A DNA stretch of 48,621 bases. It comes from a virus. Of the stretch, positions 11,249 through 48,511 are shown piece after piece (within the stretch, counting starts at the first letter, position 1; every line of letters begins with the position of its first letter). The translations under genes were made by a program, and so were the position numbers. Under the pieces are notes generated by a model that saw nothing but the letters and a program-made list of their open reading frames with translations, was not told where the DNA came from and ran no database searches. Where the stretch lies: positions 1 to 48,621 of IMG/VR virus record IMGVR_UViG_3300021405_000020, one strand, 5' to 3'.

Positions 11249-11914
11249 TCAGCTCGGCTCCGGCATAGGAGCCCCAGCAGGCAGGCCGGGAAGCTCGGCC
11301 TCCACCATCGGAGCGGCGGCCGGAATCTGTTTGAGGGCTTTCTTAAATTTCCAATAATATCCCGCTATTAAATCGGCCTTATCGGTGCCGTTGACGATTC
11401 GGCGCGCGTTGACGGGATCCTCGATCCCCTTCGCCTTGGAGAAATATTTCGGCAGGCCGACGCCGGTGAACCAGCCGTGAATCATGCCGTCGTAGCTGAC
11501 CAGCGCCGAGGTCTGGGGGTGCAGCATTTTGTGCGCCTCGGGATGGATATTGGCGTCGACGCCGTAACGTTCTTTGAGGAATTTCTGACCGTTTTTGTAG
11601 TTCTCCTCCCAAGTCAGCTGAACATGCCCGCGACCGTAGTAGCACTGGCCATGTGGGCCGGCGGGCTTGCCGTAAGACTTGCCCGCGCCCTTGCCGTATT
11701 CCTCGATCGGCTGCATCGTCTCGGCCGTTTCGTGGAAAAAGGTCGCCAGCGCGTAGGCGAGCCACATCGTCCCATCATTCGGATTGTTCTGCTCGAAATG
11801 CTGCTCCCACGTTTCGAGCAGATAATTTTGGCCATCGACCTGGGATTGCGTGAGGTTGCCTCGAAAGAGATCTTTCCTCACCGTATCAAAGTAAAATTTC
11901 CGGTCGTACGGCAT
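11249..11914 (-). CDS. Endolysin, glycoside hydrolase 19 type
   Basis: 221 aa. FFHETAETMQPIEEYGKG (catalytic Glu62 in HE) and CYYGRGHVQLTWEENY are hallmark segments of GH19 chitinase-like lysozymes, which cut the glycan backbone of peptidoglycan. The region near NARRIVNGTDKADLIAGYYWKFK closes the domain. A Pro/Ala-rich tail of about 25 residues follows. No signal peptide is seen, so export should depend on the holin downstream. The start overlaps the upstream gene (ATGA). Confidence 0.9.
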   Translation of the reverse strand: MPYDRKFYFDTVRKDLFRGNLTQSQVDGQNYLLETWEQHFEQNNPNDGTMWLAYALATFFHETAETMQPIEEYGKGAGKSYGKPAGPHGQCYYGRGHVQLTWEENYKNGQKFLKERYGVDANIHPEAHKMLHPQTSALVSYDGMIHGWFTGVGLPKYFSKAKGIEDPVNARRIVNGTDKADLIAGYYWKFKKALKQIPAAAPMVEAELPGLPAGAPMPEPS

Positions 11915-18075: not shown

Positions 18076-18474
18076 CTACTTCTTCGACCAGCGAACCGCA
18101 TTGGCGGCTCGCGAGCGCGAACGCTTCACTTCGAGAGGAATATTTTCCGCACCGCGCCGGATCCTGTCCGAGCGCACATCAGCGGGGATGTCAGCCGCAT
18201 TTTCGCGCGCCGTTGCCCAGCGCAAATGCTCGCCGTTCACGCAGAGGCCGCCAATGCAGCCGTTGGGCGTGTCATGGGCGGCGTGATGTTTCGGAGTAAG
18301 AGGCGGCCCATGCGCCTCTTCGCAAACGACGCGCGGAACCCGCACGACTTTGCCGTTCCAGCCTACAGTTCCCTGCAAAGATTTGGGATTGCCAGCGAGC
18401 GCCGCGATCCAGCGATAGCACTCGCCATCCTCGACCCACTTGTCTCGGTGCCGTTCAAGTAGGTTGAAAATCAC
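18076..18474 (-). CDS. HNH homing endonuclease
   Basis: 132 aa from a GTG start. CYRWIAALAGNPKSL, VVCEEAHGPPLTPKHHAAHDTPNGC and CVNGEHLRWATARENAADI give the Cys/His-rich HNH fold found in free-standing phage endonucleases, followed by a basic tail. It is a close relative of 19269-19706. It lies directly upstream of the portal gene, a typical site for genes that home into conserved head loci. Confidence 0.85.
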   Translation of the reverse strand: MIFNLLERHRDKWVEDGECYRWIAALAGNPKSLQGTVGWNGKVVRVPRVVCEEAHGPPLTPKHHAAHDTPNGCIGGLCVNGEHLRWATARENAADIPADVRSDRIRRGAENIPLEVKRSRSRAANAVRWSKK

Positions 18475-19268: not shown

Positions 19269-19706
19269 TCAACGGCGCGCGCGACGTGTCTCCCAAGCTT
19301 TGCGCCGATCTTCACTCCGCTGCTCCAGGGTTCGCGAAGCTGCAGCCTTGCGCCCACGCGCCTTGTGCTGCTCCAAAGTCTGAGCCGCAGCGGCCTTCAA
19401 CTGACGCTCACGGCGCTTGTTTGGCGGGGTGTCGAGTTGATTCTCACTCTGAGACGCCCAACGCAAGTGACCGTCGTTGACGCAAATCCTGCCTACGCAC
19501 CCATTCGGCGTATTGTGCGCGGCTTGATGTTTGGAAGTCGGAGGAGGCCCGTTCGCCTCCTCGCAAACGATGCGGCTGGCGCTTTTCATCGAGCCCTTAT
19601 GCTTGACTTGGGCATAACCGTTGCGGGTCGCCGCCGCGATCCAGATGTAGCAACCCGTGTTGGGCTCCGGAAACCACTTATCTTCGTGATTGGCGAGGAA
19701 GCTCAT
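19269..19706 (-). CDS. HNH homing endonuclease
   Basis: 145 aa from the ATG at 19706. CYIWIAAATRNGYAQVKH, IVCEEANGPPPTSKHQAAHNTPNGC and ICVNDGHLRWASQSEN form the HNH core. The C-terminus has repeated basic units (AAAAQTLEQHKARGRKA, AAASRTLEQRSEDRRK) that probably bind DNA. It is paralogous to 18076-18474; the pair brackets the Gly/Pro-rich gene, so one likely arose from the other. Confidence 0.85.
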   Translation of the reverse strand: MSFLANHEDKWFPEPNTGCYIWIAAATRNGYAQVKHKGSMKSASRIVCEEANGPPPTSKHQAAHNTPNGCVGRICVNDGHLRWASQSENQLDTPPNKRRERQLKAAAAQTLEQHKARGRKAAASRTLEQRSEDRRKAWETRRARR

Positions 19707-19845
19707 TGAGTTTTTCCAATTCCTCGTCACAAGCCCGCGCGTGACGGGCGACTACCGCCCATTCCTCGCGGCCACGCGAATGTTCTTCGGCAATCGTAGC
19801 CAACAAACGCACCAAGAGCCACGGCTCGTCCATGCCGGCGTGCAT
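19678..19845 (-). CDS. Small helical protein, unknown
   Basis: 55 aa from the ATG at 19845 (a second ATG is four codons in). MDEPWLLVRLLATIAEEHSRGREEW and a charged helical end look like a real small protein, but no ribosome site is seen. The same frame stays open upstream to 20205, where another natural-looking start (MALSNVERQRRWR) overlaps the terminase stop, while the part between is a shadow of 19857-20084. An old frame disruption is possible. Confidence 0.45.
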   Translation of the reverse strand: MHAGMDEPWLLVRLLATIAEEHSRGREEWAVVARHARACDEELEKLNELPRQSRR

Positions 19846-20191: not shown

Positions 20192-21475
20192 TTAGACAAG
20201 GCCACGAATTCGCCTCCGGAGGCGCTGACCAGAATGCCGCATCGAAGAGACGAGGGCTATCCCCACACAGCCTGTCCGGAAAGCGTCCGCCGCGTCTTCG
20301 GCTTCGTCGGCGACGGCGACGCCGGATTTGCCGCGCCGGTAGGAACGGAGGCGAGCGAGACCGCGGCGCGTCGCCGTCTCGTCGAACCAGGAGACCCCGA
20401 GCACGCCGCGGGTGGCGGTGATGCCGTCCTCGGTGTTGTGGTTGGGAACGGTGAGGACCGGCTCGGCGAGGAGGCCGAACAATTCATGCTTGCGGCTATG
20501 TCCCGTCGTGAGCTCGCGCACCTCTACGTCATGGGGCAGAAGATGTGCGCGGAAGCGATAGCCGCCGGCGCGGGCCTTGAGGTGGAGCAAGTCGGTATAG
20601 TGGCTGAGCTTCTTGCCCACGCCTTCGATATAATCGATCCAGTGGACCTCGCGGCCGGCGAGTTGGAACAGCCAAACGCATTGCAGATGCCGGATGCCTA
20701 AATCCCAGGCGGTGATGACGTCGGTGTTGAGGTCGGGGCTGACTTTGCAGATGCGGCCGGCGAGCTGCAGATCGTTGAGGCTTTCGGCGTAATAGGCGCC
20801 CTCGACCGGAGCGTCGAACGAATTCAGCATTTCGCGCGCGAACTCATCGACGCTCATGTCCTTGCGCATCTCCTCGACCTCTTCGAGCGAGAGGGCGTCG
20901 GTTCCGGTGTCGGTGATCTTGATGTCGAAAATGTCCCAATCAGGATCGTCTTCCGCCTTGAGCTTGAGCTTGTGGAAGTGATCGTCGCCCGCACTCGTGC
21001 CGCTGACAATGGCAAAACCTCGATAGTCAGCCAGGCATGGTCGGACGACCGAGGTGAAAGCTTGCTGAGCAAGCAGAGGATATTCATCGAGGACTGCGCC
21101 ATCGAGGTAAATTCCGCGCATACGCTCGTAAGCCAGGGCCCCGCCGTAAAGTCGGATTGTAGCTCCTCCAGGAAAAATGACGGTGAGTTCGCCTTCGAGA
21201 TGGCGGACGCCGGGAATATTGGCGGTGTATGTTTTAAGGTATTGCCAGACGAGGTCTTTGGTTTGGTCAAAGCTTGGTCCAATATAAGCGTAGCGTGGTG
21301 GTGGGGTTAATCTTTTATTTTCAAGCGCAGCAGCGATTAGAGCGTTAGCTAACGCCACAGTTTTCCCTGCTCTTCGATGACAGACTGCAAATTTCCAACG
21401 CTTATGACTTTGGTGCAACGGAACAAAGTGCCTGCGAGGCTTGTAGGGGAGGACAATTTCTTCCGCATCGTCCAT
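20192..21475 (-). CDS. terL: Terminase large subunit
   Basis: 427 aa from the ATG at 21475, which overlaps the stop of the HNH gene (ATGA) and has GGAAG upstream. The ATPase has Walker A VCHRRAGKT (31-39) and Walker B GAVLDE (126-131), then the SGTSAG coupling motif near 158. The nuclease half begins around TAWDLGI (Asp258), with a late acidic pair in DEAEDAADAF. It cuts concatemers and pumps DNA through the portal. Family type alone does not settle cos or headful packaging; the circular assembly favours headful or cos-circularised DNA. Confidence 0.92.
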   Translation of the reverse strand: MDDAEEIVLPYKPRRHFVPLHQSHKRWKFAVCHRRAGKTVALANALIAAALENKRLTPPPRYAYIGPSFDQTKDLVWQYLKTYTANIPGVRHLEGELTVIFPGGATIRLYGGALAYERMRGIYLDGAVLDEYPLLAQQAFTSVVRPCLADYRGFAIVSGTSAGDDHFHKLKLKAEDDPDWDIFDIKITDTGTDALSLEEVEEMRKDMSVDEFAREMLNSFDAPVEGAYYAESLNDLQLAGRICKVSPDLNTDVITAWDLGIRHLQCVWLFQLAGREVHWIDYIEGVGKKLSHYTDLLHLKARAGGYRFRAHLLPHDVEVRELTTGHSRKHELFGLLAEPVLTVPNHNTEDGITATRGVLGVSWFDETATRRGLARLRSYRRGKSGVAVADEAEDAADAFRTGCVGIALVSSMRHSGQRLRRRIRGLV

Positions 21476-21927
21476 CAAAATTTCTTCCAACTCGACCGGG
21501 CGCGCACCTGTTTGATGCAGGAGATTGTGACGCCGAGCCGCGCGGCGAAAGCGGCGGCGTTGAAGCGGGCGTATCGCGGCGCGGCGCGGATTTCAGCGAC
21601 ATCGGCCGCCGAGAGGATCTGTTTATGATGGCGGCCCTTACCCTGTTTGTCGTGCATATTGTCGCCATCGGTCCCGAGGAACAGATGATCGGGGTTCACG
21701 CAGCCTGGATTATCGCAACGGTGTAGAACCTGCAGGCCTTCGGGGATCGGGCCGCGAAACTTGGTCCAGGCGACCCGATGCGCCCGCTCCGGAACGCCAT
21801 CGCCGCGATTGATCTGCCCATAGCCCTTCGGTTGGGTCGAGCCGGTCCACAGCCAACAGCCGGGCCCACGCTCGAAATAACGCTCAAATCGCTCCTCAAC
21901 CGGCGTTGTCCGACGTTTCTTCCTCAT
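21475..21927 (-). CDS. HNH_3 homing endonuclease between the terminase genes
   Basis: 150 aa. CWLWTGSTQPKGYGQI, ERAHRVAW, LHRCDNPGCVNPDHLFLGT and NMHDKQGKGRHHKQ are the classic HNH_3 signature. A C-terminal helix-turn-helix (LSAADVAEIRA, AAAFAARLGVTISCIKQV) should give DNA specificity. Its start overlaps the small-subunit gene by 32 bases and its stop overlaps the large-subunit start, so terminase translation is coupled through it. Confidence 0.9.
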   Translation of the reverse strand: MRKKRRTTPVEERFERYFERGPGCWLWTGSTQPKGYGQINRGDGVPERAHRVAWTKFRGPIPEGLQVLHRCDNPGCVNPDHLFLGTDGDNMHDKQGKGRHHKQILSAADVAEIRAAPRYARFNAAAFAARLGVTISCIKQVRARSSWKKF

Positions 21928-25396: not shown

Positions 25397-25531
25397 ATGA
25401 TGAAAATTCGAATCGTTTACAATCGCTTGCTTGGCGGATGGTTCATTGTCCGCGGCCCGCATCAAACGCCGCTTGGCGGCCGCTTCGCCACTAAGGCCAA
25501 AGCGCAAGCCCATCTGGAGGCGCGCCGATGA
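25397..25531 (+). CDS. 44-aa conserved-looking small protein
   Basis: MMKIRIVYNRLLGGWFIV, RGPHQTPLGGRF then ATKAKAQAHLEARR. It begins two bases after the previous stop and overlaps the next start (ATGA), so it fits the tight gene string. WFIVRGPHQTPLGGRF followed by a KA-A-HL helix resembles many tiny alphaproteobacterial phage proteins; the function is unknown. Confidence 0.7.
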   Translation: MMKIRIVYNRLLGGWFIVRGPHQTPLGGRFATKAKAQAHLEARR

Positions 25532-26100
25532 AAGACCATCGCGTCAAAGGCGTTGAAGCCGCAAGCCTCCACGATTCGTACACCTATTATTTTGGACCTA
25601 GAAAAATGTGGAAACCAATTGCGGGGTTTGAAGGCCTTTATGAAGTCTCAGATCAGGGCGAAGTACGTAACAAACGATTTAACCGCCCTGTGGTCACCTT
25701 TGTTGATCAGCGCGGTTATCAATGCGTCACGCTTTCCTCTGGAAAACTCAGAGCGCGGCGCAAGGTTCATCGTCTCGTTCTAGAGGCTTTTGTCGGTCCA
25801 TGCCCCGAAGGAATGGTGACGCGCCACTATCCTGATCGGGATCAAACAAACAATCGTCTCGCCAACCTATCGTGGGCCACTGAAACCGTGAATCAGCAAG
25901 ATCGCGTAGAGCACGGAACGCACATGCGAGGCGAGCGCAACAATAAAACCATTCTCACGGAAGAACAAGCGCGCGAAATTCTTGCAATCAAAAACTGGCC
26001 GCGCGGTTCGATTGTCGCAAAAGCTCAAGAATACAGAATCTCGCCCAGCGCAATTAGCAACCTTATCAGAGGCAAAAGCTGGGCGTGGTTACGCAACTAG
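25528..26100 (+). CDS. NUMOD4-HNH homing endonuclease
   Basis: 190 aa. Residues 27-70 are a NUMOD4 unit (MWKPIAGFEGLYEVSDQGEVRN), 80-125 an HNH core (KVHRLVLEAFVGPCPEG, HYPDRDQTNNRLANLSWAT), and 150-190 a helix-turn-helix (REILAIKNWPRGSI, ISPSAISNLIRGKSWAWL). The first 26 residues, before the natural NUMOD4 start, may be the 5' remnant of a small gene it invaded. Lower GC than its neighbours supports recent arrival. Confidence 0.9.
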   Translation: MKDHRVKGVEAASLHDSYTYYFGPRKMWKPIAGFEGLYEVSDQGEVRNKRFNRPVVTFVDQRGYQCVTLSSGKLRARRKVHRLVLEAFVGPCPEGMVTRHYPDRDQTNNRLANLSWATETVNQQDRVEHGTHMRGERNNKTILTEEQAREILAIKNWPRGSIVAKAQEYRISPSAISNLIRGKSWAWLRN

Positions 26101-29164: not shown

Positions 29165-31705
29165 TTGACAGCGCGTTCGAAGGGGTCGAAACCTGTTCCT
29201 CTTTGGGTGCGCCGAATGCCTTGGGAAACAACCCAGCTCCAAAGATCCTTGACCATTGATTTCATAACCAAAAGACGGCTCAGAGCGCCGGTCATTTGGC
29301 TTCAGCCAGAGTCCCTTTCCCCGAAGCCGGATGATGCCCTCGCGACCCCCCAACTCGACACCAATTTAGAAGAATGGCGCTTGCAGAGCGACGAGCGCAA
29401 TTTGGCCGTTCGACTGGCCGATGGATTCATCGAATTGCAACTCCAGGCGCCCGACGAGGTCTGGTTTATGCTGTTTGCGAGCCAACTCGACGCTCGAGCG
29501 TCGTTTGGGCCTCTAAACAAGCCGATCTCCTCGATCATCCTCAAGGTCGAGGATCCGACTACGATCGAGCGTTGGACCGATCGCTGGCCCCGCGGCTTTA
29601 AGGACAAAGCCGGCGCTTGGGTCGAAACCAAATTCACCTATTCGTCGCCGCCAACCAAGACCGCCAAGGCGATCTGGCGCGATTCGAAGCCTCTGCCCGG
29701 CTCGCGCTTCGGCGGCGATCTGATTGTCTGGCGACCGCACGGCAAACCGCCGGCGACCGATCTCGAGCTCGGCCTCGAGGATCTCGAGCCAAGACCTGTG
29801 CCTGCGACAAATATGGAATCCATTTGTCGTGCGATCGCTTTCGCCACGCTCGGCTATTGGGTTCAGACCTACCTCGACGGGCTCGAGGATTGGGATGTAA
29901 GCCTCACCCGCACGCTCGGCGGCTGGATTGCTCGCATCGTCCGTGAAGGCCAGGATATCAACGCGCGCGGCAAGAGCCTCGAGGGTTTGTGCTGGGCGCC
30001 GGTTGATTCTTCCGCTACCGTCAGCGAATTACTGACCTTTCTAGAGAGACTCGGCGCCAAGAAAGACCTTGGCGTCGCTTTTCTTCACGCCGAGGCCGCG
30101 CTCGAGCGCAATCCGACCGCGCCGGTGCCAGGCTGGGGCGCGCTCGAAACTCTGTTCAGCCCGCAAGCTAAGGTGGGGATTCGGCGGGCGTTTCGCGCCG
30201 GGCTCGACATCGACGCGATCGAGCAGATGTCGGATCAGTATATTTTCGACCGCACCGCGCACGAATATCTCGATCGCGATGAATTGCTCAAAGGGCTGAC
30301 TTACGCTCACAAATTTGACGACCTGGTCGGGCGCCACCAGAACGAATCGATCGTCGTCGGCAAGAAGGCGCACAACCCTTTCCGCCTTTACGCCCAATCC
30401 TCGCTGCGCTCGGACGTCCAGCACCGCGAATTCCGCCCTGGCCATAGACCTGGATCCATCCTGCGCTACAGCCCGGTCCACGGGCTCCTCAATGGCGAGG
30501 ACCAGCATCCAGACGAATACCGGCTCCTCAACGTCTTCCCAGGCTTCACCATTAAGCCGATCGCCACCGTCGACCCTACGATCATGGCGCGCGCGATCAG
30601 CATGCTCGACCGCATGCTCAGTTATCTGACGCAGGACAACGACGCGCAGATCAAATGGCTGAAACAGTTCAAGGCTCAGATCGCCCAGCACCCGGAGGTT
30701 AAACCCCAGGTTTGCCCGATCATCGTTGGCGGCCAGGGCATTGGCAAAAGCCAATATGGCGATAGCTTCATGCGCGCCATGTACGGCTCGATGGCCGGCA
30801 GCGCCGCGGCTGATCTGCTCTCCGACAACAAATTCGTCATCACCCCCTTCGTCGGCAAGTTGATCACTTTTATCGACGAAGTTCGACTCGAGTCGGCCGG
30901 CTCGATCAACACGATCAAGAAGATCGTCCGCGCTGAATATGTCTCGGGCCAATTCAAGCGCCAGGACCAGCGTGACTATTACATCCCATCACGGTTGATG
31001 ATCGCCTCCAACTCGCCTGACATCGGCCTAACGCCCGCCGACGCCGCCGACCGGGCGTTTTTCTTTGTCATGAGCTGGACCGCCGAAAATAAGCGGATGA
31101 CGGACACCGAGTTCCAGACCTGGGCCCTCACTCTCAAGCCTTTCTATAACGATCTGGTCGTGGCGCTCGAGAGCGTCGTTTTTCGCCAGCACTTGATGCG
31201 TTACTTCATGGATTTCGAGGTCACCCGCGCCGAGCTCGAGGATCTGCAACATTCCTCGCGCAACGACGTCAATGTGGTGCGCTCGACGATGTCCAAGGCG
31301 CGACAGGTAGCGCGCGACATTGTCGCCGACGCGCGCGTACTGCAGGGCAAGGACATCACCGCCTGGTTCTCCACCGCGATGCTGCGCGAAGCGATCTTTC
31401 GCGTCGATGGCCGGCGCACCAAGGTCGAAGTTTCTCAAGTGATTATGGAGTTTGAGCGCGCCGGCGTGGTCGAGACGGTGCGTGGCGATTTGCGCAAATT
31501 CAAGTTCAAATACGGCACCCTGCTCGAGAAAATGGGACAGGCTCACAACTTGCCAATCACCAACAATTGGGACTACTTTCCTGACGACTGGGGCGACAAC
31601 GACGTGATGTCGTTAGAAGGCGGCGGGGAATGGCGGGGCAACAAGCAGCGAAAGCAGGGTCAGCGGCGTGGGCCCTACGATCCTGACGCCATGCCAGATG
31701 AGTAA
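29165..31705 (+). CDS. Superfamily 3 helicase / primase-helicase-like replication protein
   Basis: 846 aa from a TTG; an ATG at 29216 is an equally possible start. The C-terminal half is a D5/DUF5906-type SF3 helicase: Walker A VGGQGIGKS near 520, Walker B ITFIDEV near 570, sensor RLMIASNSPDI near 620, and ADRAFFFVMSW. The N-terminal 450 residues are unrecognised; a primase could be hidden there but I see no clear catalytic triad. It probably unwinds the phage origin. With no phage DNA polymerase seen, host polymerase is presumably recruited. Confidence 0.85.
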   Translation: MTARSKGSKPVPLWVRRMPWETTQLQRSLTIDFITKRRLRAPVIWLQPESLSPKPDDALATPQLDTNLEEWRLQSDERNLAVRLADGFIELQLQAPDEVWFMLFASQLDARASFGPLNKPISSIILKVEDPTTIERWTDRWPRGFKDKAGAWVETKFTYSSPPTKTAKAIWRDSKPLPGSRFGGDLIVWRPHGKPPATDLELGLEDLEPRPVPATNMESICRAIAFATLGYWVQTYLDGLEDWDVSLTRTLGGWIARIVREGQDINARGKSLEGLCWAPVDSSATVSELLTFLERLGAKKDLGVAFLHAEAALERNPTAPVPGWGALETLFSPQAKVGIRRAFRAGLDIDAIEQMSDQYIFDRTAHEYLDRDELLKGLTYAHKFDDLVGRHQNESIVVGKKAHNPFRLYAQSSLRSDVQHREFRPGHRPGSILRYSPVHGLLNGEDQHPDEYRLLNVFPGFTIKPIATVDPTIMARAISMLDRMLSYLTQDNDAQIKWLKQFKAQIAQHPEVKPQVCPIIVGGQGIGKSQYGDSFMRAMYGSMAGSAAADLLSDNKFVITPFVGKLITFIDEVRLESAGSINTIKKIVRAEYVSGQFKRQDQRDYYIPSRLMIASNSPDIGLTPADAADRAFFFVMSWTAENKRMTDTEFQTWALTLKPFYNDLVVALESVVFRQHLMRYFMDFEVTRAELEDLQHSSRNDVNVVRSTMSKARQVARDIVADARVLQGKDITAWFSTAMLREAIFRVDGRRTKVEVSQVIMEFERAGVVETVRGDLRKFKFKYGTLLEKMGQAHNLPITNNWDYFPDDWGDNDVMSLEGGGEWRGNKQRKQGQRRGPYDPDAMPDE

Positions 31706-32132
31706 ATATGCCAAGCACGCCAGATTTAAGACGCCTGAGTATCGGGCTTGGGAGCAAATGAAAAGGCGCTGCAAACGCAATCCTAGATACATCGCCAAAG
31801 GTATTTCGCCGTGTGAACGCTGGCGTGATTCATTCCAAAACTTTTTCGCTGATATAGGACTGCGTCCTTCGCCAAAGCATACCCTTGAGCGTATCAAAAA
31901 TGATCTTGGTTACTCTCCAGACAATTGTTGCTGGGCCACGCGCCTTGAGCAGTCGCGCAATAGAGAAAACACTTTATGGGTCATTTTTCGAGGCGTGAGG
32001 ATGAGCGTTGTTGAGGTGGCGAAAATAACCGGCCTATCGAAAGGTACAATTTACGACCGACTTGAACGGGGGTTCTCGGATGAAGAAGCTTGCTCTTCTA
32101 TTAACTATCGTGTTCGTCGTCGCGCCAAGTGA
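31698..32132 (+). CDS. HNH/AP2-type homing endonuclease-like protein
   Basis: 144 aa from the ATG at 31698, overlapping the helicase gene by 8 bases. YRAWEQMKRRCKRN, AKGISPCERWRDSFQNFFADIG, HTLERIKNDLGYSPDNCCWATRLEQS match the paralogue at 12258-12761. The C-terminus adds a helix-turn-helix (VVEVAKITGLSKGTIYDRLERG). It lacks the zinc part of its paralogue. AT-richer than its neighbours. Confidence 0.85.
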   Translation: MSKYAKHARFKTPEYRAWEQMKRRCKRNPRYIAKGISPCERWRDSFQNFFADIGLRPSPKHTLERIKNDLGYSPDNCCWATRLEQSRNRENTLWVIFRGVRMSVVEVAKITGLSKGTIYDRLERGFSDEEACSSINYRVRRRAK

Positions 32133-36951: not shown

Positions 36952-37155
36952 ATGCCACAAATGAGTCCAGAGAACTACGTCAAGGTTACGGCGATCGTTA
37001 ACCATGGGGTGATCAAGCTCGCCCTGCTCGACGCTTTCCCAGAGCTTTCGCGAAAAAAGCAGGAAGAGATGATGGTCGAGATCATCGGTCTGATGGCGCG
37101 CCGATGCGGTTGCGAGATCCGGTGGCTCAAGTTCGAAGAGGCGGATGGTGAGTAG
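36952..37155 (+). CDS. Small helical protein, unknown
   Basis: 67 aa from the ATG at 36952 with AAAGGG upstream. Helical: VKVTAIVNHGVIKLALLDAFPELSRKKQEEMM, then IGLMARRCGCEIRWLKFEE. It overlaps the HNH gene start by 11 bases. No family is recognised. Confidence 0.65.
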   Translation: MPQMSPENYVKVTAIVNHGVIKLALLDAFPELSRKKQEEMMVEIIGLMARRCGCEIRWLKFEEADGE

Positions 37156-37561
37156 AGGATTGAAGATTTGTAGAGGCTGTAAACAAAAACAGCCTGTCGA
37201 AAATTTCTATGTCAACACGAGAATGCGGGATGGGCATCTCTCATATTGCAAAAACTGCGTCAGGATAAAAGCGCGCGAATGGCGAGACGCTCACCCAGAC
37301 ATCGTAAAAGCCAAACGTAAAGCTTACGCAGAAGCGCATCCAGGCTTGATGAAGGAAGTAAAAAAAACTTGGAACAGGCGCAATCCAGAGAAGGTCAGGG
37401 CTAAAAGTTTAGCTCAACATATTCCATGTCCAAACGTCTGTGAGCGTTGCGGTGAAACACGTTCATTGCATCGACATCACCCAGATTACGATAAGCCCCG
37501 TGAAGTTATATTCGTTTGTCAACCGTGCCATGTTTCAATTCACAAGGAGGCGCGGTTTTGA
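37145..37561 (+). CDS. Zinc-ribbon HNH endonuclease
   Basis: 138 aa. An N-terminal treble-clef-like ribbon (CRGCKQKQPVENFYVN, YCKNC) is followed by a basic helix and an HNH core: CERCGETRSLHRHHPDYDKP and VCQPCHVSIHKEA, with two CXXC pairs and the HH of the catalytic site. It is a typical phage HNH nuclease. The AT-rich composition differs from neighbours, which suggests transfer. Its end overlaps the start of the next gene (TTGA). Confidence 0.85.
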   Translation: MVSRGLKICRGCKQKQPVENFYVNTRMRDGHLSYCKNCVRIKAREWRDAHPDIVKAKRKAYAEAHPGLMKEVKKTWNRRNPEKVRAKSLAQHIPCPNVCERCGETRSLHRHHPDYDKPREVIFVCQPCHVSIHKEARF

Positions 37562-41327: not shown

Positions 41328-41547
41328 AACCCTCAAGGACACTCACGATCTGCGCCGGCTCCTGCTTGTCAGCCTGGATCAGCTCGTTAACAAAGAGATC
41401 ACGCCCAACGAGGCGCGGGCGCGCGCCTGGCTGGTGCGGGAGGTGCTCGACACTATGCGGCTCGAAATGATCGCCGCCAGGACTGGGCTTGGAGTTTACG
41501 CGCCAGTTGAGCTGTTGCCGAAGATCGTTTCAGGAACCAAGACATGA
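41311..41547 (+). CDS. Small protein before SNF2 helicase
   Basis: 78 aa from a GTG, overlapping the AT-rich gene by 17 bases. Helical: TETLKDTHDLRRLLLVSLDQLVNKEITPNEARARAWLVREVLDTM. Its GC-rich base composition returns to that of the phage average. ATGA overlap with the helicase gene suggests co-translation. The function is unknown. Confidence 0.65.
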   Translation: MPKLTETLKDTHDLRRLLLVSLDQLVNKEITPNEARARAWLVREVLDTMRLEMIAARTGLGVYAPVELLPKIVSGTKT

Positions 41548-42956
41548 GCAAGCTCGACCCGGTCCAGATCGCCGCGCTCGACTTCGCCCGCGACAAGCCG
41601 GGCGTCGGCTGGTTCCTACAGCAGGGGCTGGGCAAGACACTGTGCGCGCTGACCGAATACTCGTGGTATCAAGGCCTCGGTCAGGCTGACCAAATGATCG
41701 TCGTCACCCCTAATACTTTCAAGCAGGGCTGGATCGACGAGATCGAGAAGCATGGTTTCAGCTTCAACGCCCATGTCTTTCGCTCCTCAAAAAAAGAGGA
41801 GGCGCAATGGTTTCTTAGCCGCCAGGGCCATAATTCGCCGCCGATCCTGATCATCAACTACGAGGCGATCCGAATGCCGGCGGTCTTGACCCGGATCGTC
41901 AAGTGGGCGGCGATCGGCAAGACATATCTGGCGATCGACGAATCGATTCAGATCAAAGGGCACCGATCCCAGCAAACCAAAGCGATTCATCGCCTGGCGG
42001 CAGTCTGCCGCTGGAAGCGATTGCTGACCGGCCGCCCGCAAACCCAAGGCCCGCATGATCTTTGGGGGCAACTCAGAGCCATCGACCTGTTCACTGATCG
42101 CAACTTCTACGCCTTCCGCGGCGCCTTCTGCGTCATGGGCGGTTGGCAGAACAAGGAGGTGATCCGGGAGAAGAACGCCAACGTGCTCGCCCGCATCATG
42201 GCCCCGGCGGTGTTCCAGGCCAAGAAGGCGGATTGGCTTCCGGATTTGCCGCGCAAGGATCCAACCATCCGCGATTATCAGATGTCGACCGAACAGCTGC
42301 GCCAATACAATCAGATGGAGCACCAGTTCCTAGTCGAGATCGAACGCGGGGTCGTCACAGTCGACGTCGCGATCGCTAAATACGAAAAGCTGGCTCAGAT
42401 CCAAACAGGGTTCGTCTATGACGCATTCGGTGAGGTCCACGAGCTCGTACACCCGAGCGAGAATCCCCGGCTCAAACTGCTCCATCAACTCCTCGACGAG
42501 GAGGTCGAGGGCAAGGTCTGCGTCGTCTACCGTCATCGGCCGGTTTTCGATCTCCTGTTCAAGGCGCTGAAGGACTACAATCCAGCCTGGATCCGGGGCC
42601 GGATGAACCCGGAGGACGTCGAAGAGCAGAAGTTCAGATTCAACAACGACCCCCGCTGCCGGATCATCCTGCTGCAGGCCGAAGCCAGTAAGTATGGCCA
42701 CACCCTGCTTGGCGACGTCAATGTCGAGGAGGACAAGTGCCGCACCATGATCTTCTTCGAAAACAGCTACTCGGCCGACACTCGCGACCAGGTCGAAGAC
42801 CGGATTCACCGCCGCGGCCAGACGGGCGAGTACGTTTCGTACATTGACCTTTCTGGCTCGGCGCTCGACCGTCGCATCGTCAAGGCGCTGCAGCGCAAAG
42901 AGCGACTGTATCAGAGCGTATTCAAGAACCTCAAAGCCACGGCGCCGGCGGCATGA
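41544..42956 (+). CDS. SNF2-type superfamily 2 helicase/translocase
   Basis: 470 aa. Motif I QQGLGKT (26-32), Ia VTPNTFKQGW, motif II in AIDESIQIKG (DES instead of DEAH), motif III LTGRPQTQG, motif V region LLQAEASKYGHTL and motif VI RDQVEDRIHRRGQT are all present. Such phage proteins probably move on double-stranded DNA in recombination-driven replication or displace host proteins. The nuclease at 38958 is a likely partner. Confidence 0.9.
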   Translation: MSKLDPVQIAALDFARDKPGVGWFLQQGLGKTLCALTEYSWYQGLGQADQMIVVTPNTFKQGWIDEIEKHGFSFNAHVFRSSKKEEAQWFLSRQGHNSPPILIINYEAIRMPAVLTRIVKWAAIGKTYLAIDESIQIKGHRSQQTKAIHRLAAVCRWKRLLTGRPQTQGPHDLWGQLRAIDLFTDRNFYAFRGAFCVMGGWQNKEVIREKNANVLARIMAPAVFQAKKADWLPDLPRKDPTIRDYQMSTEQLRQYNQMEHQFLVEIERGVVTVDVAIAKYEKLAQIQTGFVYDAFGEVHELVHPSENPRLKLLHQLLDEEVEGKVCVVYRHRPVFDLLFKALKDYNPAWIRGRMNPEDVEEQKFRFNNDPRCRIILLQAEASKYGHTLLGDVNVEEDKCRTMIFFENSYSADTRDQVEDRIHRRGQTGEYVSYIDLSGSALDRRIVKALQRKERLYQSVFKNLKATAPAA

Positions 42957-43111
42957 ACTTCGGCCTCGCAGTGATCATCATCGTTGCGATGATCGGCTCG
43001 TATCTCTGGGGCTACCGGGACGGGGTCAAATATTGCGTGCGGCAAATGCGACCGCTGGGCGACATGGCCAAAGATCTGGCTGACCGCCTCAGAGAGCGAA
43101 AACGTGACTGA
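42953..43111 (+). CDS. 52-aa single-span membrane protein
   Basis: MNFGLAVIIIVAMIGSYLWGY is a hydrophobic span, followed by a charged tail (MAKDLADRLRERKRD). It is coupled to the helicase gene by ATGA. The topology fits a small inner-membrane protein; the role is unknown. Confidence 0.65.
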   Translation: MNFGLAVIIIVAMIGSYLWGYRDGVKYCVRQMRPLGDMAKDLADRLRERKRD

Positions 43112-43127: not shown

Positions 43128-43164
43128 GTGCGATGAAGGGTTGGGCAATTGGAAAGGGACAAGA

Positions 43165-43803
43165 ATGCGTAAAATCCTACTAACCACTACCATGCTCGCG
43201 GCGCTTACGCTGCCAGCGCGGGCGACGCTGCAAATCGAAGTGTTCGATAACGGCGCGCTGATCGACAACGTCACCGGGATCACCACCGGCGCCGCGTCGC
43301 TCACCGCCAACGACGCCAACTTCGCCAACATCACCATCGCCGCGCAGGGTAGCCCGATCCTGCCCAACGCCGACCTCTCGAGCGTCACGCTCGACGCCAG
43401 CGCAGCGGCGGGCTTTACCGGCTCGCACATTCTGACGGTCGATGTCCTGCAAAGCGCGATCAGCGGGCGCGGCGGCACGCTCTCGACCTTCACTGTCAAC
43501 GGGCTCACCAACGATCCCGGTCCAACCACCGAGTCGACCTTCGCCGATGGCGGGTTGCTGGCTTCGCACACCTTCCCGGTGACGCTGCTCGACGGCTCCT
43601 TCGGCCCGGTGGCGGCGGCGGCCGGAACGTTCAGTTCGGACGAGACGCAATTCGCCGTCGACTTCACCGCGCCGCGTCAGTCATTTGGCGGCTCGATCCA
43701 ATTGACGACCGGCGTGCCCGAGCCTTCCACTTGGGCGATGTTGGCGCTAGGCTTCGGGCTCATGGGGTTATTGGGCTTCCGAAGAAGGAACGCGCTGGTC
43801 TGA
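43165..43803 (+). CDS. PEP-CTERM surface-sorted protein
   Basis: 212 aa from the ATG at 43165 with GGAAAGGGA upstream. MRKILLTTTMLAALTLPARA is a signal peptide with cleavage after ARA. Residues 21-183 are a beta-rich extracellular part of no known family. The end VPEPSTWAMLALGFGLMG, then LLGFRRRNALV, is a complete PEP-CTERM signal: PEP motif, membrane helix and basic tail, recognised by bacterial exosortase. The host must supply the exosortase; none is seen here. Its place at the end of the plus-strand block suggests a moron-like cargo gene altering the infected cell surface. PEP-CTERM proteins are usually bacterial. Confidence 0.85.
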   Translation: MRKILLTTTMLAALTLPARATLQIEVFDNGALIDNVTGITTGAASLTANDANFANITIAAQGSPILPNADLSSVTLDASAAAGFTGSHILTVDVLQSAISGRGGTLSTFTVNGLTNDPGPTTESTFADGGLLASHTFPVTLLDGSFGPVAAAAGTFSSDETQFAVDFTAPRQSFGGSIQLTTGVPEPSTWAMLALGFGLMGLLGFRRRNALV

Positions 43804-43938: not shown

Positions 43939-44013
43939 ATGACAATGATACCCTTCGCCGCGATGATCTTTTTTGGCTGTCTTGCCGCGTATTACTGGCT
44001 CACCGATCAATAG
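43939..44013 (+). CDS. 24-aa membrane micropeptide
   Basis: MTMIPFAAMIFFGCLAAYYW plus LTDQ. AAAAAGGA lies nine bases before the ATG, and the peptide is a single hydrophobic span. It runs into the opposing gene's stop. Real translation is plausible but unproven. Confidence 0.45.
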   Translation: MTMIPFAAMIFFGCLAAYYWLTDQ

Positions 44014-45371
44014 GCGCTGCCCAGCATGATGTTTTTGATCGCGTCGCCCACCTCGGGGCCGGGCTGCGCGCCTGAGAGTTGCTGTCCGGTCAATTGTGGA
44101 TAGGCCTGTTGGTAGGCCTTAAGCAATTGAGTCTTGTCATAGCCTTTTAGCGCCTTGTTGATCGCTGGCTTGGCGAACAAATAACCGAGTCCTTCACCGA
44201 TAAACTCGCCGGGCCAGCCCGCCATCATGCCGCCAGCCGCGCCGATCGCATGCGCGCCCATGTGACCCAACGCCCAGCTGAGTTTGCTGGTCGAATCCTG
44301 GCTCTTTTGGTACAAATCAGTCAGGGTCTTATAGTTTTGAAGAGCGTCCGGACCCTGATAGTATTTTTCGGCTTCGGTCAGCGGCGCCTGGCCCACCGAC
44401 GCGCCCACACTCTCTCTCCGCTGCCACTCGGCCAGGTTCTGCGCCATCATGTACTGCTGATGCGCAGTCTGCGCCTGCTGCAGCGTCTGCGCCGCCTCGC
44501 CCGGCGCATGATCGGTGATCGGGTTGGCGTTGGTGAGCAGATCGGAGAGATTGCTGGCGGTCTGCCCGGCGAGCAGTTTATCGCCATTGCTCGCGCTAGG
44601 AGAGCCGCTGACCGACTTCAGATTTGTCATGTAGTCGGCGATGTCGTTAGCGGTGTTGCCGCCGCTCTGGATCGCGTCGCGCTGCTTGGCGAGCATGCTC
44701 TCCATACCCGAAGTGACATCAGCCCCCATACCGGGCGTCAGCGTCGCGCTGGTGTGGGCGTTGAGCACGTCGTCGGGATTGAAGGCGATGTTCTTGAGCG
44801 GCGCATAGGCCTCGTCACGCAGCTGTTTGGTCTTAGCGATCGCCGCTACCGGGTCGATGCTGCCGGGTGTTGCGCCCAATTTCGCCACGCCCTTGCCAAT
44901 GCCGCCGGCCACGCCGCCCAACACCCCGCCAGTCGCCGCGCCGGTGACGGTCGAACTCGGGTCGAAATTGCTGCCAAAGCCGGAGCTCAGACCGCCCGCC
45001 ATGGCGCCCTCGGCCACGCCGGCGGCGATCGGGCCGCCGGTCACCGTCGCAGCCGCCGGGCCGAGAAGCTTGCCGGGGCCGACCGCATAGGCGCCGATCT
45101 CAGCCGGATAGCGAATGGCCGCGGGCACGCTCTGCCGCGCCGCTTCGGTCTGCGCTTGCTGGGTCTGCAGCGAAGGCATGCCGGGAACTTTGGAATAGAG
45201 CCAGTCAGCCCCGCCGAGCGTGAGCGCGTTCTCGAGCGTCCTGCCGATCCCGCTCATCTTGGACGAAGCGTCGGTCTGCGCGGGCGCCGCTTTGGCCCCG
45301 GTATCGAACTGGTCGAATGGGTTGCCGCCGCTTGCGTGGGCCGAATCGAACTGGTCGAATGGATTGGCCAT
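44007..45371 (-). CDS. Internal virion / ejection protein with glycine-zipper helices
   Basis: 454 aa from the ATG at 45371. NPFDQFD occurs twice within the first 23 residues. A Gly/Ala-rich region, 85-165 (GAYAVGPGKLLGPAAATVTGGPIAAG), looks membrane-inserting. Long Gln/Ala helices follow (TLQQAQTAHQQYMMAQNLAEW). It ends the late operon, where podoviruses encode proteins ejected to form a DNA channel through the envelope. Alternatively it is a minor capsid protein. No sequence family is recognised. Confidence 0.65.
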   Translation of the reverse strand: MANPFDQFDSAHASGGNPFDQFDTGAKAAPAQTDASSKMSGIGRTLENALTLGGADWLYSKVPGMPSLQTQQAQTEAARQSVPAAIRYPAEIGAYAVGPGKLLGPAAATVTGGPIAAGVAEGAMAGGLSSGFGSNFDPSSTVTGAATGGVLGGVAGGIGKGVAKLGATPGSIDPVAAIAKTKQLRDEAYAPLKNIAFNPDDVLNAHTSATLTPGMGADVTSGMESMLAKQRDAIQSGGNTANDIADYMTNLKSVSGSPSASNGDKLLAGQTASNLSDLLTNANPITDHAPGEAAQTLQQAQTAHQQYMMAQNLAEWQRRESVGASVGQAPLTEAEKYYQGPDALQNYKTLTDLYQKSQDSTSKLSWALGHMGAHAIGAAGGMMAGWPGEFIGEGLGYLFAKPAINKALKGYDKTQLLKAYQQAYPQLTGQQLSGAQPGPEVGDAIKNIMLGSAY

Positions 45372-46804: not shown

Positions 46805-47604
46805 GCCGAAGCTCCCTTCTGCGCCTGCAGTTGGTTCAAGGTATTGAAGAACCCGGTGTTGCTATAGCCGCCGGGGATCGATGTTCCGCCGCCCGGATGC
46901 GCGGCCAAGAAGGCCGATAGGACCGAGGGCTGCGGCGCGCCGGTCTGGGACGTCCCAGGCTGCATCACCGCGCCGGGCGTGGTCACCTTTCCAGGGTTCG
47001 AAAGCGCGTCGAGATAGGCCTGGCGCATGTTGTAGGGGTTGGTGGGCGCGGCTGGCGCTGCGGCCGAGGCCGAAGGTTGACTGGCCATCTGGTTGAAACC
47101 GGACCCGCCGACGTTCATCAGGGCGAGCGCCGTCGAAGCCTGTGGGTTGGCCCCGCTCGGATTGCTGCCGGAAGCGACGAAATTATTTCCGGACGGCATC
47201 ATCGCCAAGCCAGAGGCATATTGAGCCATAGGGCCACTGGCGGCGTTCCGCTGGGCTGGGGTCAGGGCTTGCCATTGTTGCGGGGTCATCCCGCCGCGCG
47301 GCTGCGCCACCGCCGTGTTCTGGCCTTGCGGAATATTGACGCCGGAGAATGGATTCGCCGTGCTAGCGACTGCGCCCGAAGTGTTCAAAGTCGTGCCCGG
47401 CGGGTTGGCGGCGCTCCAGGCGTTGGAAGCGTTCTGGGTGTCGGTGAAGCTCTGAATCGGCTGGCCCGAAGCGTTGGTCGGCGCGCCATAGAAGCCGGCC
47501 ATCGGGATCTGGCCAGTGTATTGGAGATAGGGATTCGGACCCGTGAGCCCCTGCAAGCCGAGCATGTTCTGATAGTCGGCAAGCGGATCATCGCCACTAG
47601 CCAT
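46801..47604 (-). CDS. Internal virion-like protein
   Basis: 267 aa from the ATG at 47604, overlapping the lysozyme gene by 8 bases. Pro, Gly, Asn and Gln dominate (PGTTLNTSGAVASTANPFSGVNIPQGQN), with MTPQQWQALTPAQRNAASGPM and NPYNMRQAYLDALSNPG as ordered spots. It belongs to the string of low-complexity virion proteins; a ruler or ejection role is possible. Its 5' end appears again at window positions 1-56. Confidence 0.7.
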   Translation of the reverse strand: MASGDDPLADYQNMLGLQGLTGPNPYLQYTGQIPMAGFYGAPTNASGQPIQSFTDTQNASNAWSAANPPGTTLNTSGAVASTANPFSGVNIPQGQNTAVAQPRGGMTPQQWQALTPAQRNAASGPMAQYASGLAMMPSGNNFVASGSNPSGANPQASTALALMNVGGSGFNQMASQPSASAAAPAAPTNPYNMRQAYLDALSNPGKVTTPGAVMQPGTSQTGAPQPSVLSAFLAAHPGGGTSIPGGYSNTGFFNTLNQLQAQKGASA

Positions 47605-48511
47605 ATAACGCTCCTGTGGAATTCAACGTGGTGCCCGGCGTTGGCGCCGCTGTCGCCATCGGCATCGTCTGGCCGCCCTGATAGCTCATGGTCGAGCCCA
47701 GGTTTGGCGCGCCTCGAGCGCCCTGCAGGCCGCCCATCTGCCGCGTCGCCATCATCAGTTGCGGGGCGAGCGCGGCGATCTGCGCCTGGCGCGCGTTGCC
47801 CATCGAGGCCGCGGCCTGCTGCCCCTCGAGGTTCATCGGCGGCGGCGCGGAATCGCCCCCGCCTCCAGCGAAAGTCGACTGTAGATTATCCATCGTGGAT
47901 TTGGTTCCAGGCCCGCCGGTCGGCGCGCTGAGCGCCGCGAGCGCCATGCCGACGTTCGCCGGCTGTGCGGCTGCGGGCGCGGTTGTCGCTGCGCCTGTGT
48001 TGGGAGTCGCTGCGCCAATCTTCCCGGCGGTGTTGGCCACATATTGCGCCACTGTATTGTGGCCGTCGCTCGAATTTCTGATCCAGGGCGTCGGCGAGCC
48101 CGGCGGGGCGACATTGCCGGGACCAGAAAAATAAGCGACCGCCCAGCGCGCCGGGTCATTCGGCCAGCGCGTAGCGTAATCCTGCATGATCCGATTATGG
48201 ATCGCGACATTGTCGGCGGGATTGCTGAGACTCTCGCCTGGCCGCATGTACGGCTTGGCGGTCGCTGGCATGATTTGTCCCGGCCCGACCGCGCCGGCAT
48301 AGCTGGTGGGGTTCTTCAGGTTGGTCGAAGTCGAGCCGCTCTCATGATGGAGAATGGCTCCCGAAGTCGCAGCGACAAGCGCCGGCGACGAAGGCATTGG
48401 CGACGGCGCATAGGTGGTCGAAGTCGCCGGCGCAGGGGGAGTCGGCGTGACCGGGCGAGCCGGCGGCGCAGATCCTCCAAGAGGCGAAGGTTGATAGGCG
48501 TCGTCAGCCAC
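47597..48511 (-). CDS. Lytic transglycosylase-like virion lysozyme, allele B
   Basis: 304 aa from a GTG. Catalytic Glu57 in HHESGS, then AVGPGQIMPAT, PADNVAIHNRI and AVAYFSGPGN. Compared with allele A (49-930) the first 170 residues differ by many substitutions and indels (longer Pro/Thr-rich N-terminus, extra loop after the catalytic Glu), while residues from AQPANVGMALAALSAPTGG on are nearly identical. The sharp boundary suggests recombinational replacement of the enzymatic part. The role is presumed local peptidoglycan cutting at entry. Confidence 0.8.
   Translation of the reverse strand: MADDAYQPSPLGGSAPPARPVTPTPPAPATSTTYAPSPMPSSPALVAATSGAILHHESGSTSTNLKNPTSYAGAVGPGQIMPATAKPYMRPGESLSNPADNVAIHNRIMQDYATRWPNDPARWAVAYFSGPGNVAPPGSPTPWIRNSSDGHNTVAQYVANTAGKIGAATPNTGAATTAPAAAQPANVGMALAALSAPTGGPGTKSTMDNLQSTFAGGGGDSAPPPMNLEGQQAAASMGNARQAQIAALAPQLMMATRQMGGLQGARGAPNLGSTMSYQGGQTMPMATAAPTPGTTLNSTGALYG

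Follow-up and report, generated by a model that had tools for sequence, protein, structure and literature searches.

Can a phage carry a protein addressed to the exosortase of its host, and what would such a protein do there? The question arises from an open reading frame late in IMG/VR record IMGVR_UViG_3300021405_000020, all 48,621 nucleotides of which were analyzed (hereafter, the window). A first-pass annotation, made from the letters alone, had proposed that the frame encodes a phage-borne PEP-CTERM protein with signal peptide, beta-rich body, and complete sorting tail, that it closes a block of plus-strand genes, and that the product could mask receptors, alter biofilm, or block superinfection through the host's own enzyme. 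To our knowledge, the PEP-CTERM/exosortase system has so far been treated as purely bacterial, and the role of PEP-CTERM cargo is still poorly understood. A search of the open-access literature turned up no report describing a class of phage-encoded PEP-CTERM proteins.

The window belongs to a soil phage: the contig carries an SU10-type portal, terminase, major head protein, scaffold, tail fibre, primase, and SNF2 helicase. The gene of interest lies between the helicase and a convergent gene of the structural block, an interval that we call the slot. Its features are as follows.

41544..42956, plus strand: SNF2-type helicase of the phage, bounding the slot on the left (phrog_62, E=2.8e-89; PF00176)
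43151..43159, plus strand: Shine-Dalgarno-like GGAAAGGGA, 5 nt upstream of the ATG at 43165, read from the sequence
43165..43803, plus strand: PEP-CTERM protein gene of family A, 212 aa (curated models and ~66 viral relatives)
43165..43224, plus strand: predicted signal peptide, residues 1-20, ending in ARA, without lipobox Cys (from the sequence)
43225..43713, plus strand: beta-sandwich-like body, residues 21-183, of no known family (AlphaFold2 model; no NCBIfam or PHROG match)
43714..43740, plus strand: PEP motif VPEPSTWAM, residues 184-192 (curated models; dN/dS of 0.069, below that of every other part)
43741..43800, plus strand: membrane-spanning stretch with a basic end, residues 193-212 (AlphaFold2 helix 187-211)
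44007..45371, minus strand: convergent gene of the structural block (putative ejection protein), which closes the slot on the right and keeps this position in relatives

A 212-residue frame spans 43165-43803 (plus strand) exactly as annotated at first pass, with a GC content of 0.82 at third codon positions. Residues 1-20 (MRKILLTTTMLAALTLPARA) look by eye like a signal of the signal-peptidase-I type, and an AxA-like cleavage site is found in 50 of 52 family-A proteins; no transmembrane segment is predicted between this N-terminal signal and the tail, which reads VPEPSTWAMLALGFGLMGLLGFRRRNALV. Residues 184-208 score 32.7 bits against PF07589 (cut-off 20.7), and the tail scores 24.3-28.3 bits against TIGR02595 of NCBIfam (cut-off 16); with a C-terminal motif above curated cut-offs, the protein has a PEP-CTERM sorting domain. 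Its score against NF035944 (PEPxxWA), 33.1, lies slightly below the cut-off of 35; the family-A relative L060 reaches 35.6, and two other phage bodies introduced below, B and F, reach 42.4 and 41.4. The protein also resembles the FxDxF PEP-CTERM family (NF038126) over residues 54-207, but this partial match gives 37 bits against a cut-off of 50, and membership was rejected; since nothing was matched when the body was searched by itself, the tail accounts for the score. Overall, the frame coordinates, the curated models, and the AlphaFold2 model agree on the three-part architecture first proposed, and the gene does end the plus-strand block, with the convergent structural block next to it.

A scan for terminators and promoters around the gene gave nothing convincing, and the convergent gene (44007..45371, minus strand) had no match in a PHROG search. 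Tiny open reading frames with one membrane span each lie on either side of the PEP-CTERM gene, at 42953-43111 (52 codons, recurring in close relatives) and at 43939-44013 (24 codons, reading MTMIPFAAMIFFGCLAAYYWLTDQ). Elsewhere in the window, similar transglycosylase-like genes occur at both contig ends (1-930 and 47597-48511, ~88% identical DNA over 700 bases), as would result either from a tandem duplication or from the assembly of a circular genome with strain variation. An HNH_3 homing-endonuclease-like gene (21475-21927) adjoins the terminase, and frames resembling it by eye (18076-18474, 19269-19730, 25528-26100, 31668-32132, and 37145-37561) suggest repeated insertion of a homing element. 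The product of 24298-25011 matches PHROG 1617 (186 bits), which is phage-conserved and has no assigned function.

The body itself is best described by its predicted structure. It matched no NCBIfam family when searched alone and no PHROG, and a PDB sequence search gave no relative (best E=0.88). The AlphaFold2 model, built with 48 relatives as input (mean pLDDT 82), has 12 beta strands in an all-beta body, followed by the C-terminal helix. Its best PDB fold matches are mostly carbohydrate-binding modules and tailspike domains, with query-normalised TM-scores of 0.21-0.38 and rmsd mostly >5 angstrom, as for a generic beta-sandwich only. These matches bear on the possibility that the body binds host sugars and modifies exopolysaccharide or biofilm, either loosening the matrix for progeny release or holding the infected cell in place. 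PEP-CTERM biology is tied to exopolysaccharide (PMC1569441), and the model of another body, C, weakly suggests the same sugar-binding folds, but that model is poor (pLDDT 61), and with TM-scores below 0.4 on the query length a carbohydrate-binding fold was demoted to a weak lead. We consider such a modifier unlikely, though deserving of some weight.

Is the gene the phage's own? An IMG/VR scan yielded 148 matches, with the same body in ~66 loci at 55-98% identity; family A comprises 63 complete genes and, with that of the window counted, 52 distinct proteins. The loci are spread over several backbones that have few other genes in common with the window. Clustering by shared open reading frames gave groups of 24, 17, and 7 loci and several small ones (a rough count, since there are partial loci), and terminase or other phage replication genes back the phage nature of several groups. 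Body A remains ~76-90% identical (the most divergent members aside) while backbone genes fall to 25-70% identity or vanish, which argues that the gene has moved between phages. Body A was not found in plasmids, in isolated phages, or in GTDB (84,980 species genomes of bacteria and archaea), the last by a pattern-based scan that needs conserved peptides and that distant bacterial homologues could escape; none of these searches gave a bacterial source of the body. A short-tail tblastn search against phages gave no match, and low-complexity masking may have hidden some. Only one of the 47 related records, many of which are fragments, was found to encode a tyrosine integrase (L076, which carries another body).

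Host DNA misbinned as virus, or a host gene carried passively, is the explanation that the PEP-CTERM domain, as a bacterial trait, brings to mind. Some tail-only matches on isolate-derived contigs may indeed be host flanks, and one contig (L098/L277) has four exact VPEPSTWAM sites. The body-A gene, however, sits between phage helicase and structural genes in many independent viral assemblies and on several backbones, its body has no relative in the GTDB genomes or plasmids searched, and it is under strong purifying selection (below). We regard contamination as exceedingly improbable and rejected it; the gene is phage-borne, as first claimed. PEP-CTERM genes also lie inside phage gene blocks in three virus contigs named like isolate-genome records, L278 (11097-11639), L310 (3112-3654), and L107 (5449-6096), those of L278 and L310 adjoining lysis-like genes. 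The trait may thus extend beyond uncultured virulent phages.

Tail-only matches and later scans yielded further phage PEP-CTERM bodies, namely B, C, the rarer D, E, and F, and others. Kinship of A, B, and C was rejected as an artifact of full-length profile comparison, in which a high score came only from the aligned signal and tail; without these parts, the three profiles show no detectable kinship.

If an enzyme reads the tag, the motif should be held more tightly than the rest of the protein. Pairwise Nei-Gojobori comparisons, with sequences resampled, gave dN/dS values in family A (52 distinct proteins) of 0.069 for the motif, 0.13 for the body, 0.27 for the signal, and 0.39 for the tail; in the same order, they are 0.042, 0.29, 0.40, and 0.54 in family B and 0.091, 0.28, 0.48, and 0.51 in family C, all approximate given a nine-codon motif, partly saturated synonymous sites, and shared ancestry, with the ranking the same in three unrelated families. 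Of the 9-column body windows, 0/174 reach the conservation of the motif in family B, most members of which were recruited by body patterns only, and 40/152 do so in family A, because body A is itself highly conserved. A hydrophobic helix after the motif and then basic residues, as in the window protein, recur in the tails of 51 of 52 family-A proteins and of 86/88 across A, B, and C. Within the family-A motif, P, E, S, T, and W are nearly invariant, and the third residue is P in 41/52 proteins and A, T, S, or L in 11/52. This is what one would see with an enzyme that reads the motif and a tail that needs only its chemistry. In one family-A protein (L058:1339-1995), the tail is swapped for VPGPVVGAGLPGVIVG...RRK, still hydrophobic and then basic, possibly a different sorting-like tail.

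How often the slot is occupied was surveyed from the neighboring helicase, so that contigs were not chosen by the tag. Units were clusters at 95% nucleotide identity, and those with at least 67% helicase identity were counted as close (n=24). A PEP-CTERM gene lies directly downstream of the helicase in 21 of the 24 close clusters, with body A in 10, B in 7, E/D in three, and another body in one (the B, D, and E labels rest on signature residues); five clusters have tandem pairs of PEP-CTERM genes in the slot. The other 3/24 have no PEP-CTERM gene, and in L228 and L237 the site is empty, the convergent structural gene following 159 and 62 bp after the helicase. None of six more distant helicase clusters has a slot gene, and in the isolated Ochrobactrum phage OH the helicase and convergent gene are adjacent, with nothing between. 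Tails of the form PExx(x)W end 30 of 107 slot frames versus 4/967 elsewhere, two of those four being slot genes with an early start. On this enrichment and the selection on the motif, a chance tail was rejected. A second recurring site, of varying exact order, lies near the terminase (terL) and portal genes and holds body A (L024, L034, L050), B (L068, L075, L115-L117, L120), or C (L133, L138, L142).

The first-pass interpretation therefore stands in part: the gene is phage-borne and its tag is under selection, and the case proves wider than a single protein, extending to a swappable class of genes with unrelated bodies. We put at about an even chance the broader proposition that phages of soil bacteria keep swappable surface-display genes, in which unrelated beta-rich bodies bear one host-exosortase tag and occupy fixed slots, placing phage-chosen proteins on the cell surface or polysaccharide coat.

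Which exosortase would act on the tag? None was found in the 48 phage records searched (the window and 47 related ones), so sorting would depend on a host enzyme. A search for the host by endolysin match in GTDB genomes gave nothing. By portal, helicase, and endolysin, the isolated phages closest to the window are those of Ochrobactrum and Sinorhizobium (38-44% identity), at most a hint of a host among the Hyphomicrobiales.

According to the model that Haft and colleagues put forward (PMC1569441), the signal takes the protein across the inner membrane, the tail anchors it, and exosortase processes it; published proof of motif cleavage by exosortase is incomplete (PMC9850573). By extension, we infer export, exosortase processing, and a surface location for the phage protein. 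Made in the infected cell, it would be exported by Sec and cut by signal peptidase I, and its C-terminal hydrophobic-basic tail would anchor it in the inner membrane, so placed that the PEP motif faces the periplasm. Host exosortase would then recognize the motif, and the beta-sandwich body would be released or transferred to the outer surface or exopolysaccharide layer, where, once displayed, it would most likely change the infected cell's encounters with other phages or with sugars. The variable third motif residue in 11/52 family-A proteins and the different tail of L058 are a counterpoint to recognition of a strict PEP, and a plain inner-membrane anchor would have the same topology.

The protein might instead be a competitive decoy, a tagged substrate that floods host exosortase so that display of host PEP-CTERM proteins and exopolysaccharide fails during infection, the body being mainly a carrier. 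What the swappable genes have in common is indeed the tag, not the body, and host PEP-CTERM proteins have been linked to floc formation and bound exopolysaccharide (PMC9850573). Yet the bodies are under purifying selection (dN/dS 0.13-0.29), and family A keeps >75% identity across unrelated backbones, which is why we think that the body matters and that a decoy is improbable.

The protein could also serve at lysis, helping, in the manner of a unimolecular spanin, to break the outer membrane or exopolysaccharide. An endolysin gene lies near the PEP-CTERM gene in some backbones (~150 bp downstream in L011; also L051, L053, and L057), and in L278, a prophage in an isolate genome, the neighbors are lysis-like. 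U-spanins require a lipobox Cys, however, and 0/52 family-A proteins have any Cys within residues 1-32, so u-spanin membership was rejected. Nor would a spanin role explain a PEPSTW motif tighter than the body or three unrelated bodies, and the endolysin-like genes of the window (11249-11914 and 47597-48511) sit away from the PEP-CTERM gene. Gp11 of phage T1 does have the same broad topology, with a signal, a beta-rich periplasmic domain, a C-terminal transmembrane domain, and no periplasmic Cys (PMC6139136). On balance, we judge a lysis helper rather unlikely.

Our preferred reading, which we would accept or reject with nearly equal readiness, is that of an accessory protein of the envelope, which Sec exports and host exosortase processes, and which most likely acts on adsorption or superinfection. 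Receptor masking, biofilm change, and a superinfection block, the roles first suggested, are all hypotheses of what it might do. An effect on adsorption is the hypothesis that we place first, in the form of an adsorption block (superinfection exclusion), because phages gain by closing the infected cell, as the Llp protein of T5 does, and because unrelated bodies in one slot fit diverse receptors.

If the broader proposition of swappable surface-display genes is right, exosortase sorting would give phages a third way to reach the host surface, besides lipoproteins and membrane proteins. Should many phages encode such cargo, sorting would join the phage-host contest, the tag would predict which bacteria can be infected (carriers of exosortase), and compact phage proteins would offer handles on how exosortase substrates are recognized and moved.

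Among known systems, the closest likeness is to bacterial substrates of PEP-CTERM/exosortase (EpsH), which share the signal, domain-less body, PEP motif, hydrophobic helix, and basic end (PMC1569441). Unlike these, the proteins described here come from phages that yielded no exosortase and hardly any integrase, they recur in phage gene slots, the body of family A was not found in the bacterial genomes and plasmids searched, and about one in five family-A proteins has a residue other than P at the third motif position. The T1 gp11 u-spanin shares the beta-rich periplasmic domain and C-terminal transmembrane domain (PMC6139136), whereas the window protein is without a lipobox and has a PEP motif under selection. 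T5 Llp, an envelope lipoprotein that blocks further T5 infection, and the T1-like Cor are likewise small phage proteins exported to the host envelope, as is predicted here (PMC9586334). Those two, however, are lipoproteins held by a lipid anchor, whereas the window protein appears to combine a signal-peptidase-I signal with a sorting tag.
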